Position numbers and translations under genes: made by a program
The notes under the pieces: model-generated
Told to the model about the DNA's origin: nothing
The model's input: the letters and a program-made list of their open reading frames with translations, nothing else
Database searches by the model: none
From: Geobacteraceae bacterium
GTDB lineage: Bacteria > Desulfobacterota > Desulfuromonadia > Geobacterales > Geobacteraceae
Length of the DNA stretch: 41,719 nt
Direction: 5' to 3'
Assembly: GCA_025356035.1 (NCBI GenBank)
Contig: JANXYN010000201.1
Location: 1 to 41,719, forward strand
Shown here: positions 11,493 through 16,062 of the stretch, piece after piece
How the letters are laid out: every line of letters begins with the position of its first letter
Numbering within the stretch: the first letter of the stretch is position 1

Positions 11493-12368
11493 CTACCCCC
11501 GCCGCCCCGACACCGGTGAATAGGGATAATCGCGCAGGTGCTCGGCCAGTTCTTCCTTGTGGTAGTGGTTAGTGCGGCGGATGCAGAGGATCGCGACGAT
11601 GGTGATCGGCAGGATGCAGATGAAGATGCCGGTGGTGGCGAGCAGGTTTTCGCCGATCAGCAGGGTCATGGTGAGGTTGAAGACGAGCACCGACAGATAG
11701 AGGATCGGGCCGAGCAGTGGGCGGGACTGGAAGTGGCGGACTCCTTTCGGCGCCACCGAATGCTTCCCCTGTTTGCCGACAGCGGCGTCTATCCGCTGCA
11801 GGGCAAAGATCATGACAAATCCCACCAGCCACCAGCCGAGGTAATTGGAGATTGGCACGCCGAAATGAACACCTGGCTCCTGGTAGCCGTAGATCTGGCC
11901 GAGAAACCAGCGATTACCCTGGAGCGCCACCGGGTCGATGACGATGTCGAGAAAGACCTGGAACAGGGAGCCGAGCAGCAGTACCGAAAAAGAGCGGCGA
12001 ATGGCACGGGTTTCGAGGGTGACCAGGTCCCAGCGCCATGCCTTGATCGGGGCAATGACCAGCAGGGCAGTGGCATAGCTGCAGTAGGCGAGGAAGACAT
12101 AGGAGAGCGAATCGAAGAACGGGACTCCGGCGATCCAGAGCTCCTGCGCCTTGGTACCGTCGATATAATAGTACCAGCCGTAAGGAAAGCCGGTATTGAT
12201 AGAGCTCACCTCGGAGAGAAAGGCGATCAGATAGCCGATGATGGTGAAATAGAAGGTTTTACGCCAGCCGAGATGGGTGACGGCAGCCACCAGGTAGACC
12301 GCCAGGAATGCGAACACGTAGGGGCGCATGGTAACGGTGCCGATGGCAATCTGCATAACATAATTCAT
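11493..12368 (-). CDS. Carotenoid-biosynthesis-family (DUF422/CruF-like) membrane protein
   Basis: A 291-residue inner-membrane protein with about seven hydrophobic segments. The ATG at 12368 has GGAG seven bases upstream; the open frame further upstream runs through a hairpin and tandem repeats and is not credible as coding. Family features include SEVSSINTGFPYGWYYY, GVPFFDSLSYVFLAY, FLDIVIDPVA and ISNYLGWWLVGF, as in the PF04240 family to which the carotenoid hydratase CruF belongs. No other carotenoid gene is in the window, so the substrate is uncertain. It lies downstream of the mla genes on the same strand but is separated by 150 bases containing a terminator-like hairpin. Confidence 0.8.
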   Translation of the reverse strand: MNYVMQIAIGTVTMRPYVFAFLAVYLVAAVTHLGWRKTFYFTIIGYLIAFLSEVSSINTGFPYGWYYYIDGTKAQELWIAGVPFFDSLSYVFLAYCSYATALLVIAPIKAWRWDLVTLETRAIRRSFSVLLLGSLFQVFLDIVIDPVALQGNRWFLGQIYGYQEPGVHFGVPISNYLGWWLVGFVMIFALQRIDAAVGKQGKHSVAPKGVRHFQSRPLLGPILYLSVLVFNLTMTLLIGENLLATTGIFICILPITIVAILCIRRTNHYHKEELAEHLRDYPYSPVSGRRG

Positions 12369-12380
12369 GGTGCTCTCCGG

Positions 12381-12408
12381 AAGAAAAAATGGCGCAGAAC
12401 CCTGCGCC
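12381..12408 (-). terminator. Terminator or attenuator before the CruF-like gene
   Basis: Read on the minus strand, GGCGCAG (12408-12402) pairs with CTGCGCC (12397-12391) through a four-base loop and is followed by ATTTTTTC. It ends only ~13 bases before the start codon and leaves just enough room for the ribosome site, so it may end mla transcription or attenuate the following gene. Confidence 0.7.
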
Positions 12409-12440
12409 GACACGCGAAAACAAAGGTCAAAACCAGCACG

Positions 12441-12480
12441 CGGATAACATCTGATCAAAGCGGATAAAATCGGATCAAAC
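12441..12480. repeat. Two tandem 20-base repeats
   Basis: CGGATAACATCTGATCAAAG (12441-12460) is followed directly by a second copy (12461-12480) differing at three positions. They lie between the mlaD stop and the CruF-like gene start and could be paired operator sites or part of a dispersed intergenic repeat. Confidence 0.6.
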
Positions 12481-12518
12481 AATAATCAAAAGGGTTTTGA
12501 ACCAAAGCTTCATCCTGG

Positions 12519-13568
12519 CTAAAAGAGGGTGCCGGCTATCGTTCCGAGGACCGATATCGGGCCGCTGTCGCCAAGCCCTTCCATGGCCTTTTCGGTCTTT
12601 TTTAGGGCAGCGGTGGCGTCGCGGTAGAGGCCGTCCTCATTGACCAGCTTGCCGAGGGTCCCCTGGCCGTTGTTGATTTTGCCGGCGACCTCTTTGACAT
12701 TTTTCGAGGCGTCGCGGAGCTCGTTGTAGAGGGCTTCATCATTGACCAGCTTGCCCATGGTCCCTTCACCGCGGTTGATCTTGCCGGCGATCTCCTTGAC
12801 GTCCTTCATACTGTCGTTGATTTTGGTGACGGCGCTTTTGGCTTCATTGTAAAGTGCATCGTCATTGATCAGCTTGCCGAGGGTACCTTCGCCGCGGTTG
12901 ATCTTGCCGGTGATGCCCTTCAGGTCCGCCGAGAAATCCCGGACGTTGGCGGAAAGCGCCTTGTCGTTCAACAACATGGCGAGGGTCCCTTCGCCCCGGT
13001 CGATCTTGGTGGTGATGTTGTTTAGGTTAGCCAGCGAATTACGGAGGTTGGCGCGGTTCTCATCGAGCATGGCGGCGATCTTCCCCATCACCTCGTTCTG
13101 GTTGCGGTTCAGGTCGGCGATCATCACCCTGGCGTCCTTGGCCAGCTCGCCAACATTATCGACGATCACGTCGATATTCGCCATATCCTTGCTGTTCACG
13201 GTGCTGCCGTCGGGGAGTAGGGGGGCGTCGGCGGAGCCGAAGGTGAGGTTGAGGAACTGCCCCCCGAGCAGGTTGGTCAGGCGGATGCTCGCCATCGAGT
13301 CGGTTTTGATCCTGGTCCCCTGTTCCACTTCGAAATCGACCTGGACCTTGCTGTCAGCGATGGATATCTTGTTGATCTTGCCGGCATCCACCCCGGCCAG
13401 GCGGACCGGATCCCCGACCTTGAGGCCGGTGACTCCCCCCAGATAGGTCCTATAGTGATGCTTTTTCTCAAACGGATTCCAGCGTTCGCCAAGTTCCAGC
13501 ATCACCCCCAATACCACAATCCCGATGATAAAGAAGAACCCGACCTTCCGTTCCATTGTAAGCGCCAT
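12519..13568 (-). CDS. mlaD: MlaD-family lipid transport protein with C-terminal repeats
   Basis: A 349-residue substrate-binding (MCE) component of a phospholipid ABC transporter, anchored in the inner membrane and facing the periplasm. The ATG at 13568 follows AGGAGG by eight bases. One membrane segment (about residues 8-25) precedes the MCE domain (about 38-115, with YLGGVTGLKVGDPVRLAGV). The long C-terminal half is predicted helical and carries four copies of 'GEGTLGKLxNDxALY' (the first and last degenerate) spaced by 30-45 residues. MCE proteins form hexameric rings, and such helical tails can build a tunnel through the periplasm. It follows mlaE by 77 bases; the ATPase gene (mlaF), usually between or beside them, is absent. 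Confidence 0.92.
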   Translation of the reverse strand: MALTMERKVGFFFIIGIVVLGVMLELGERWNPFEKKHHYRTYLGGVTGLKVGDPVRLAGVDAGKINKISIADSKVQVDFEVEQGTRIKTDSMASIRLTNLLGGQFLNLTFGSADAPLLPDGSTVNSKDMANIDVIVDNVGELAKDARVMIADLNRNQNEVMGKIAAMLDENRANLRNSLANLNNITTKIDRGEGTLAMLLNDKALSANVRDFSADLKGITGKINRGEGTLGKLINDDALYNEAKSAVTKINDSMKDVKEIAGKINRGEGTMGKLVNDEALYNELRDASKNVKEVAGKINNGQGTLGKLVNEDGLYRDATAALKKTEKAMEGLGDSGPISVLGTIAGTLF

Positions 13569-13645
13569 AGCTAATGCCTCCTGTTAAAACTTCAAACTGC
13601 AGGTCGTGCTGTGCAGATGCCATCGCGGGACAAGCTGTCCCGGTT

Positions 13646-14422
13646 TCACATCAAAAGCCTGGTCAGGAAATAATCTGCCACCAGGATCAGCATGAACGAA
13701 AGAACCACCGAGCGGGTGGTGGACTGGCCAATCCCCCGAGCCCCGCCGGAGGTCTTGAAGCCAACGTAGCAGGCCACCTGGGAGATGATGCCGCCGAAGA
13801 CAAAGGCCTTGACCAGGCCAATTCCGATCTCCTTAAAAGTGAGCGCGGTCCGCAGGCTGTCGTAGTAAGTGGAATAGGAAACGAAGATCTTCGGGTGGAG
13901 ATGGCTGATGAGCGCCCCGCCGATCATGCCGACAAAATCGGCGTAGATTACCAGCGCCGGAACGCAGATCACCGCAGCGATGAAGCGCGGCATGGCCAGA
14001 TAGCGGACCGGGTTGATATCGAGGGTCTTCAGGGCATCGATCTCCTCATATACCTTCATGACCCCGATTTCGGCTGCCATGGCCGAACCAACCCGGCCTG
14101 CCACCAGGAAGCTGGTCATGACCGGCCCTAGCTCGCGTACCATGGAGAGGCCGACGATGGCGCCGATGATGTTCTGGGTCCCGTATTTTTGCAGCTCGGC
14201 GCCAGTCTGCAGGGCCAGTACCATGCCGACGAAAAACGCCATAACCGAAGCCACCGGCAAGGTTTCGTAACCGACAATGGCCATCTGGGCAAAGATGCTC
14301 TGGATATTGCGTGGCGCTTCCCGGAAAAAATAGAGCGTTTCCCCCAGCAGCACCAGCATCTCCCCGACGATCCCATGGAAGTTCAGTACTTTTTTTCCTA
14401 CTCGTTCAAGGATTCTTGGCAC
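13646..14422 (-). CDS. mlaE: MlaE-family lipid ABC transporter permease
   Basis: A 258-residue multi-pass inner-membrane permease of the Mla phospholipid transport system. Family features include GYETLPVASVMAFFVGMVL, GLSMVRELGPVMTSFLVAGR, AAEIGVMKVYEEIDAL and a tail rich in hydrophobic segments. The start is GTG at 14422 with AAGGAG six bases before it; an upstream ATG at 14446 has no ribosome site and would lengthen the overlap. It overlaps the last 17 bases of the upstream W-P-L-F repeat gene, implying cotranslation. The 77-base gap before mlaD contains a short perfect inverted repeat (GGGACA/TGTCCC at 13627-13641). Confidence 0.92.
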   Translation of the reverse strand: MPRILERVGKKVLNFHGIVGEMLVLLGETLYFFREAPRNIQSIFAQMAIVGYETLPVASVMAFFVGMVLALQTGAELQKYGTQNIIGAIVGLSMVRELGPVMTSFLVAGRVGSAMAAEIGVMKVYEEIDALKTLDINPVRYLAMPRFIAAVICVPALVIYADFVGMIGGALISHLHPKIFVSYSTYYDSLRTALTFKEIGIGLVKAFVFGGIISQVACYVGFKTSGGARGIGQSTTRSVVLSFMLILVADYFLTRLLM

Positions 14423-15941
14423 CGCTTGCTCCTTGCATGGTATCACCGGTTGTATTCGCTGCTGCGCTGGTGTTTCCCCAGCTTATGCCGAACGGGAGCC
14501 ACAACAGGCTGAAATCGCTTTCGCCATCCTTATTACGGTAACGAATTAACCCTTTTAGTACTTTTAGTTCCGTTCGTTTTTGCTCGGAGCTGTAAGCCAA
14601 CAGCGGGAAAAACTCATAGGCGAGCTCATCGCCGCGGCGTTCGTGCCAGTAAAGATTCCACAGCACCGACACGACGGAATCGCCTGCATCATTCCACTTC
14701 TGCTGATACAGCCGCCAGAGTGGCGCCCAGCTCTTTTCTATTCCTTCCTTGTCGAGGACTGGCTCTACCGGGGCAGGTAACGAAATGCTGTATCCCCCGT
14801 GGGGGTTGCCGTTATAGAGAAACAGTGGCCAGAAGGCGATGCGTCGCCGCTCTTTGCCATCCACCGGCCAGCTTTCGCGCTTGTCCGAATAGAGCCAGAA
14901 CAGGATCCGGTCTCGCTCTTGCCGGTAGCTAGCCGAATCCATGACTTCATGGCTGTAGAGGGGCCAGATATAGGTGTATTTCACGCTTTCGCTTTTCTCC
15001 ACCCTGCTGTAAAAGGGGATATAGCTGTCAACCTTGCGGCCTTCCCCACGGATAGTGTACCAAATAGGCCAGAGATAGTCCCACTCCTCCACCTGCTTCC
15101 CCTGATCGGCAGTGTGCCCCACAAACGGCCACAAATAGTGGCGCGAGTGGCGAGTCGGCGAATCTCCCGCGGCGTAAAAAGGGAAGAGATAGAGTCGCTC
15201 GGTGGGGTTAGCGGTATCAAGCCCGGTTGACTCACGCATGAACAGGGGCCAGAGGACAAAGCGTTTATGGTAAACTCCCTCCTTGGCCGATTGGCCATAA
15301 AGTGGCCAGAACTGGAAGCCGCTCTCCCTTTCGCCGCTGGTTAGCGCGAAAAGAGGATACAGGTAATTCCGGTTGGTTGTCCCCCCTTTGACGGTCCGGC
15401 TATAGAGCGGAAACATGACGAAGTGGATTTCATCACGCCAGAGGCGCTCGTAGATGTCCCCATAGAACGGAAAGACCGAGGTATATGGGCCATACTTTGC
15501 CGAACTGCCGCTCAAGTAGAAGGGGAGCAGCATGCGGTTATGTTCCTCCCCCTCCTCCCCCTTGTGGAAGATACTGGTCTGATACAACTCCAGAATCGAC
15601 ACCTTCGTGGCAGCCGGGGTGGTTTCGGTGGCGGCGAGGGGATAAAGGTAGATGGTCTGGCTGGTCTGTCCGTTGTTGCGGGTTGAATCATAGAAGAGGG
15701 GGCGAATGGCCAGGTCTCGCGCTCCTCCCTGGTGCTGAAGCTTGAACAGAGGTCCCAGGATCGCCAGGTTGCTGAAACCTTCCCTGGGGCTCTCTCGGTA
15801 ATCGATCAGTGGCCAGAAGGTAAAAACAGTCCCTTCTTCGCCGGCCTCCCGGCCATCAGCGGCATAGAGAGTGGTGGCGAAGGGAGCGCAGAGCAGGAGG
15901 AGCAACCCCGTGACCAGTAAATGTCTTGTTTGCATAGGCAT
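14406..15941 (-). CDS. Exported W-P-L-F/Y repeat protein, function unknown
   Basis: I do not recognise a named family with certainty. The 511-residue protein has a signal peptide (MQTRHLLVTGLLLLL..., ending L-Y-A-A) and then about twenty degenerate repeats of 20-35 residues. Each is marked by an aromatic/Pro core such as FWPLIDY, IRPLFYD, LLPFYLS, VFPFYGD, MFPLYSR, YLYPLFA, FWPLYGQ, VLWPLFM, YLWPFVG, YLWPIWY, YIPFYSR, YIWPLYS and FWPLFLY. The alternating aromatic/polar strands suggest an all-beta structure, perhaps an outer-membrane barrel or periplasmic propeller-like fold. A second ATG at 15935 is possible; no good ribosome site precedes either. It overlaps mlaE by 17 bases, so a role in envelope lipid transport is plausible but inferred only from position. 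Confidence 0.82.
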   Translation of the reverse strand: MPMQTRHLLVTGLLLLLCAPFATTLYAADGREAGEEGTVFTFWPLIDYRESPREGFSNLAILGPLFKLQHQGGARDLAIRPLFYDSTRNNGQTSQTIYLYPLAATETTPAATKVSILELYQTSIFHKGEEGEEHNRMLLPFYLSGSSAKYGPYTSVFPFYGDIYERLWRDEIHFVMFPLYSRTVKGGTTNRNYLYPLFALTSGERESGFQFWPLYGQSAKEGVYHKRFVLWPLFMRESTGLDTANPTERLYLFPFYAAGDSPTRHSRHYLWPFVGHTADQGKQVEEWDYLWPIWYTIRGEGRKVDSYIPFYSRVEKSESVKYTYIWPLYSHEVMDSASYRQERDRILFWLYSDKRESWPVDGKERRRIAFWPLFLYNGNPHGGYSISLPAPVEPVLDKEGIEKSWAPLWRLYQQKWNDAGDSVVSVLWNLYWHERRGDELAYEFFPLLAYSSEQKRTELKVLKGLIRYRNKDGESDFSLLWLPFGISWGNTSAAANTTGDTMQGASGAKNP

Positions 15942-15965: not shown

Positions 15966-15994
15966 ATTATTAATCAGGAATAACGTTTAGTCAA
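15966..15994 (-). promoter_or_regulatory. Probable promoter of the repeat-protein/mla operon
   Basis: On the minus strand TTGACT (15994-15989) and AATAAT (15971-15966) are separated by 17 bases. Transcription would start about 18 bases before the ATG at 15941, leaving a short, AT-rich leader. Confidence 0.55.
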
Positions 15995-16028: not shown

Positions 16029-16062
16029 AGCGAAGGCCCGCCATTTGTTGCGGGCCTTCGCT
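16029..16062. terminator. Strong hairpin between leuD and the repeat-protein gene
   Basis: A perfect 13-base stem (16029-16041 with 16050-16062) and eight-base loop lies 45 bases after the leuD stop. It lacks a clear T-run on either strand, so it is either an inefficient terminator or a 3'-end stabiliser of the leuCD transcript. Confidence 0.55.

Follow-up and report, generated by a model that had tools for sequence, protein, structure and literature searches.

In Veillonella parvula, the lipid transport protein MlaD is elongated and reaches the outer membrane with a barrel of its own. The survey of MlaD types that described this arrangement proposes a three-component MlaEFD core, lists Verrucomicrobia MlaD without a fused barrel, and raises as-yet-unidentified proteins for such long barrel-less MlaDs (PMC10665443). 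Here we analysed a 41,719-nucleotide stretch of a Geobacteraceae bacterium (the window; GenBank assembly GCA_025356035.1, contig JANXYN010000201.1, positions 1 to 41,719), in which a gene for an exported WPLF-repeat protein (14406..15941, minus strand; an open reading frame (ORF) of 511 residues) lies directly upstream of an mlaE-mlaD pair. The pair encodes the MlaE permease of a lipid ATP-binding cassette transporter (13646..14422, minus strand; PF02405, 5.8e-77; TIGR00056) and the MCE protein MlaD (12519..13568, minus strand; PF02470, 1.3e-17). This MlaD is of the long barrel-less type, with a transmembrane segment, an MCE domain, a helical needle and a short tail in 349 residues. The distribution of the repeat protein is complementary to that of the MlaD-fused barrel, which makes it a natural candidate for the partner of barrel-less MlaD. 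We put at roughly 55% the probability that it is the outer-membrane-side partner of the barrel-less needle and does the fused barrel's job in trans.

Linkage to mla genes in two phyla

Homologues of the repeat protein were found in 34 of 38 close relatives and at 30 loci in a collection with one genome per species. These loci were mostly of the Geobacter type, with Desulfuromonas, Verrucomicrobia and another bacterium also present at ~30% identity, and nearly all of them carried the repeat gene, then mlaE, then mlaD. Within the window's phylum, a profile search recovered the repeat gene in 69 of 198 genomes. It stood beside mlaE, mlaF or mlaD in 59 of the 66 assessable carriers, a count that left out G056 and G191, where the gene is at a contig edge, and G025, where mlaD is about 4.8 kb distant. 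The order of genes varies, with the repeat gene 5' of mlaE or 3' of mlaD, and the linkage is kept. In the Verrucomicrobiota, the phylum of the Verrucomicrobia locus, about 90 of 194 genomes hold the repeat gene. The repeat gene adjoins mlaE-mlaF at each of the 19 new loci that matched best, and 18 of 20 loci with wide flanks, partly the same as those 19, hold the repeat gene together with mlaE, mlaF and an mlaD of 309-517 residues. Four genomes of family f36 (L109, L113, L114 and L116) have the repeat gene beside a long mlaD, with mlaE and mlaF absent within the fetched flank. The other neighbours in the window, leuCD and the CruF-like and LOG-type genes, were seen at Geobacter-type loci only. 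Thus, adjacency to mla genes across phyla is the strongest evidence of a functional tie. An earlier note on this DNA, made from the sequence without database searches, had suggested a partner of the Mla lipid transporter; the suggestion withstood this survey for homologues away from mla genes, and adjacency in two phyla, together with the exclusivity described below, strongly supports it.

Three forms of the Mla operon

Together, three forms of the Mla operon occur in 187 of the 198 genomes of the phylum. One has a short MlaD (~150 residues) and MlaC, another a long MlaD (463-628 residues) with a fused C-terminal barrel-like domain, and the third a long barrel-less MlaD (~300-370 residues) with a conserved P-[IVL]-[ST] tail, plus the repeat protein. 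MlaD measured 147-205 residues at 18 MlaC loci. At repeat-gene loci its median length was 347 residues, and shortly beyond the needle it terminates in a tail of roughly [DE]-x-[TGSA]-P-[IVL]-[ST], which is conserved across both phyla. The window MlaD carries a tail of this kind, DSGPISVLGTIAGTLF (12522..12569, minus strand), as judged from the sequence and from homologous tails of MlaDs travelling with the repeat protein. The tail is a possible docking site or mini-barrel strand. The window genome holds both kinds of MlaD, the 349-residue protein here and one of 150 residues in a second mla operon (L167, on contig C153 of G000), where a fragment of MlaC lies at the contig edge.

Twenty mlaE loci were sampled from genomes with neither the repeat gene nor MlaC. 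MlaD had 463-628 residues at 16 of them, the last 190 forming a conserved barrel-like domain with a strand amphipathicity of 7-9, compared with ~4.9 for shuffled sequences. Two loci had no recognisable mlaD, one (L236) had a 300-residue MlaD that lacks both barrel and tail, and one (L237) had a truncated repeat gene at the end of a contig, next to an MlaD with the tail. A profile built from the 16 MlaDs matched in 34 of the 198 genomes, none of them the window genome and none among the 69 repeat-gene carriers (p=1.4e-7; 0 of 13 at family level, p=0.015). It matched 0 of 108 MlaDs at repeat-gene loci and 16 of 36 at other loci, the latter being the same 16 from which it was built. MlaC and the repeat gene avoid each other as well, co-occurring in 13 of the 198 genomes (p=1.9e-12, odds ratio 0.10; p=0.007 at family level); the two were on separate contigs each time and were never seen in one operon. 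MlaA shows a similar avoidance of the repeat gene (p=5e-11). In the Verrucomicrobiota, MlaC was found in 23 of the 194 genomes, five of which (G291, G333, G387, G400 and G409) also have the repeat gene, on separate contigs.

The repeat and its predicted fold

The window protein contains 11 strict [WYF]P[LFIV][FYWLI] tetrads, where 0.33 are expected and where 20,000 composition shuffles gave a maximum of 4, indicating that the aromatic-Pro-Leu repeat is real. A looser motif occurs 17 times, and degenerate units (GPLF, RPLF, APLW and WNLY) raise the total to ~23. The earlier note had counted about twenty repeats at 20-35-residue spacing; the repeat stands, with about 23 units, while the spacing is shorter, each unit spanning ~18 residues around the core [L][WFY]-P-[LF]-[FY]. 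An alignment with 32 distant homologues, mostly with 20-30% identity to the window protein, contains 23 columns with at least 60% proline, mostly spaced 17-22 residues apart. Around each conserved proline, hydrophobic or aromatic residues make up 77-93% at positions -2, -1, +1 and +2, and charged residues make up 30-50% of the flanks more than about 5 residues out. The mature chain has a high content of proline and aromatic residues and contains no cysteine.

Structure prediction of the mature protein with AlphaFold2 supported its proposed all-beta character. The model consists of ~46 strands of 5-8 residues, or ~23 hairpin units with an aromatic-Pro-Leu turn (14475..15830, minus strand), with a predicted local distance difference test score (pLDDT) of 79 and a predicted template modelling score (pTM) of 0.56. 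The central 258 residues (mature residues 104-361; 14778..15551, minus strand), the best-predicted part, gave 27 strands when modelled alone (pLDDT 93, pTM 0.70). The WPL site forms a break of 3-4 residues between two strands. The only helix within the sheet (mature residues 371-382; 14715..14750, minus strand) is strongly conserved in close homologues. The nearest solved structures to the central part were the CPAP/SAS-4 G-box (Z 10.6), the ApoB belt (10.4), OspA (~10) and MORN1 (10.0). All are open single-layer antiparallel sheets and superimpose with a large root-mean-square deviation (rmsd); the MORN1 structures reached a Z of ~10 with an rmsd of ~10 Å over 167 residues, a resemblance of fold only. 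Because the Z values are little above the level reached by unrelated models, we claim a kind of architecture and not kinship. Foldseek found no confident match for the full model (template modelling scores of 0.1-0.16) and nothing below E 0.001 for the central domain. Thus modelled, the protein is predicted to be a long single-layer antiparallel beta-meander of the CPAP/MORN/OspA/ApoB kind, and is unlikely to be a membrane barrel. A parallel beta-roll or solenoid, which the RTX-like 18-residue period of the repeat might suggest, is not favoured, since the structural neighbours are antiparallel meanders.

As the earlier note had surmised, the repeat matches no known domain: nothing rose above cut-off in single-sequence and profile searches of Pfam, NCBIfam and PDB sequences, and the PDB gave no match even with the profile. 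Neither the window protein nor the 32 homologues matched PF05494 (MlaC), PF04333 (MlaA), the MORN Pfam model or the AsmA/TamB family. The conserved C-terminal segment, which includes LWNLYWHE (14514..14699, minus strand), weakly resembles over ~60 residues the NCBIfam model LA_1737_Cterm (NF047486, Leptospira; E 7.5e-5 and 6.2e-5), with 22.7-23 bits below the curated cut-off of 60; six of the 32 homologues match it at E <0.01. For the window MlaD, the Leptospira Mce model NF047463 gives a match (5.6e-29) that is likewise below its cut-off. Since both proteins have such sub-cut-off matches, the same gene pair may exist in spirochaetes. Glycosyltransferase matches were confined to single homologues and are most likely due to chance, and evidence for an enzyme identity was lacking. 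The plasmid collection contained no match. The literature searched contains no description of the repeat family or of LA_1737, and the family appears to be undescribed. Longer ORFs of ~600-1400 residues weakly match the repeat (G006:C22:110177-111493 and, in the Verrucomicrobiota, for example G315:C1:339296, G350:C91:61928 and G423:C83:15189); these are possibly paralogous members of the family in another role.

Cellular location and gene context

The window protein begins with a signal peptide of signal peptidase I type (residues 1-27; 15861..15941, minus strand), with the cleavage site read by eye as MPMQTRHLLVTGLLLLLCAPFATTLYA^AD, and has no lipobox. Comparison of 134 homologue N-termini revealed a convincing lipobox in ~20, in several families (23 pattern matches, a few of them spurious), and the Geobacter-type copies appear to be cleaved by peptidase I. 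The signal peptides and lipoboxes support the envelope location that had been proposed, and an outer-membrane-facing envelope protein would fit them.

The strand and coordinates that the earlier note gave for the ORF were right, and its 17-base overlap with mlaE holds if mlaE starts at GTG 14422; with the alternative GTG start at 14446 the overlap is 41 bases. A sigma-70-like promoter candidate with a 10/12 match lies 25-53 bases upstream of the repeat gene (15966..15994, minus strand). It is suggestive by position only, as the number of such sites in the region (three, with 2.3 expected) is no greater than chance would give. A promoter common to the repeat gene and mlaE, which the earlier note had claimed, is putative. 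Between leuD and the repeat gene lies a perfect 12-base inverted repeat, GCGAAGGCCCGC / GCGGGCCTTCGC, with an 8-base loop (16030-16061) and no T run after it, which is maybe the terminator of leuCD. The window has no mlaF in the interval from mlaE to mlaD (12519-14446), nor do other Geobacter-type loci, so the ATPase for the window Mla system must come from elsewhere; mlaF is present at the Desulfuromonas-like loci, at other loci of the phylum and in the Verrucomicrobiota. After mlaD comes a CruF-like carotenoid biosynthesis gene (11493-12482, minus strand; PF04240, 4.4e-27). It is syntenic at most Geobacter-type loci, a pigment-lipid enzyme adjoining a lipid transporter.

Role of the repeat protein

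We infer for the repeat protein a location on the outer-membrane side, docking to the MlaD tail and a part in lipid transfer. It would sit at the end of the MlaD hexamer nearest the outer membrane and bind there to the conserved P-[IVL]-[ST] tails, with its aromatic-edged beta surface facing both the exit of the needle and the inner leaflet of that membrane, and would complete a trans-envelope phospholipid route. Elsewhere in the phylum, the needle ends in the fused barrel-like domain, or a short MlaD works with the soluble carrier MlaC, which ferries lipid to MlaA. The repeat protein is probably a third way to the outer membrane beside these two known Mla routes. It is possibly a direct lipid conduit, as the earlier note had envisaged, although the predicted fold is an open single-layer sheet, or it may only anchor the needle. 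More tentatively, it could be a conduit of a new kind, in which ~46 strands in one open sheet, ~22 nm long by arithmetic if fully extended, would offer phospholipid a continuous aromatic WPLF edge from the needle tip to the outer membrane; we consider this rather doubtful.

Several observations weigh against a partner on the outer-membrane side. The seven unlinked genomes, with the repeat gene apart from mla genes (L097, L098, L099, L120, L122, L133 and L134), comprise all five carriers in family f32 and two in f42. The fused MlaD domain is called barrel-like from its strand amphipathicity and its likeness to the published type, and not from a structure. The exclusivity statistics handle kinship by counts at family level and not with a species tree. 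Finally, the window copy is a non-lipoprotein with no indication of membrane attachment.

The most serious competitor, to which we give clearly less weight, is that the repeat protein serves the long MlaD needle as a scaffold, an assembly factor or a regulator, for instance as a clamp along it, without contacting lipid. CPAP/MORN-like single-layer beta-meanders often serve as protein scaffolds, in line with the fold matches, and the four f36 genomes, where a long mlaD is the only mla gene seen beside the repeat gene, also point this way. The repeat gene is, however, absent exactly where MlaD has its own barrel-like domain, which suggests that an outer-membrane function has been replaced and not that needles in general need it for assembly. 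The same replacement could be read as favouring an integral outer-membrane beta-barrel, separate from MlaD, with ~23 strands of ~12-13 residues kinked at the WPL site. The 18-residue period would suit one strand and one turn, and porins, PapC and LptD were among the lower fold matches. We nonetheless consider such a barrel unlikely: AlphaFold2 breaks each unit at WPL, with a pLDDT of 93, into two strands of 6-8 residues, which are too short to cross a membrane, where amphipathic strands of about 9 or more would be expected of a closed barrel, and strand amphipathicity is below that of shuffled sequences (3 compared with 5.6), whereas that of the fused MlaD domains is above their shuffles. Moreover, several homologues are lipoproteins, and the top structural neighbours are open sheets.

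A soluble lipid shuttle replacing MlaC would account for the strong avoidance of MlaC at genome level and for the position of the repeat gene after mlaD in many operons. It is improbable in view of the partner MlaDs, which are long needles where those of MlaC are short rings, of the open sheet that is predicted, and of the lack of a PF05494 match. Least probable by far is that the linkage is incidental gene order of no functional meaning. Synteny of the leuCD, CruF-like and LOG-type genes in Geobacter-type genomes lends this some plausibility, but the distribution largely refutes it: outside those genomes the mla neighbours persist where no other window gene was seen, and the gene switches sides of the mla genes yet stays linked.

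If the repeat protein is itself a lipid conduit of the new kind outlined above, MCE transport would have a third solution at its outer-membrane end, evolved independently of MlaA/MlaC and of the fused barrel. The analysis names, in two phyla, a candidate fourth component beyond the three-component MlaEFD core. The pattern also supplies a rule for predicting carriers (a long MlaD, no barrel and a P-[IVL]-[ST] tail), which makes the lipid route through long barrel-less needles a testable question in Geobacter and the Verrucomicrobiota.

Comparison with known systems

The matches to the CPAP/SAS-4 G-box, MORN, the OspA central sheet and the ApoB beta-belt share with the repeat protein an open single-layer sheet with about two strands per 18-23 residues. 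They differ from it in having no sequence relation by Pfam and PDB sequences, and the rmsd is high; the likeness may reflect merely a common arrangement. The likeness to Leptospira LA_1737 is confined to the weakly matching C-terminal segment. PqiC, the outer-membrane lipoprotein of PqiABC, is described as an octameric toroid (PMC10897342). The analogy would be one of function, with an envelope protein placed where an MCE needle reaches the outer membrane, and several repeat homologues are lipoproteins too. The toroid differs from the long beta-meander predicted here, and there is no family match between the two. E. coli-type Mla likewise has MlaE, the MCE domain of MlaD and extra periplasmic or outer-membrane components encoded in the genome. 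Its MlaD, however, is short, MlaC (PF05494) and MlaA (PF04333) have no sequence relation to the repeat protein, and MlaC was never seen to share an operon with the repeat gene. V. parvula MlaEFD has in common with this locus an Mla operon whose long, helical MlaD is predicted, or has been shown, to span from inner to outer membrane (PMC10665443). In that species MlaD supplies the outer-membrane part itself, as one of its domains, whereas at this locus MlaD goes no further than the needle and a distinct exported repeat protein is encoded beside it. The system is a variant of MCE transport and not a new category.
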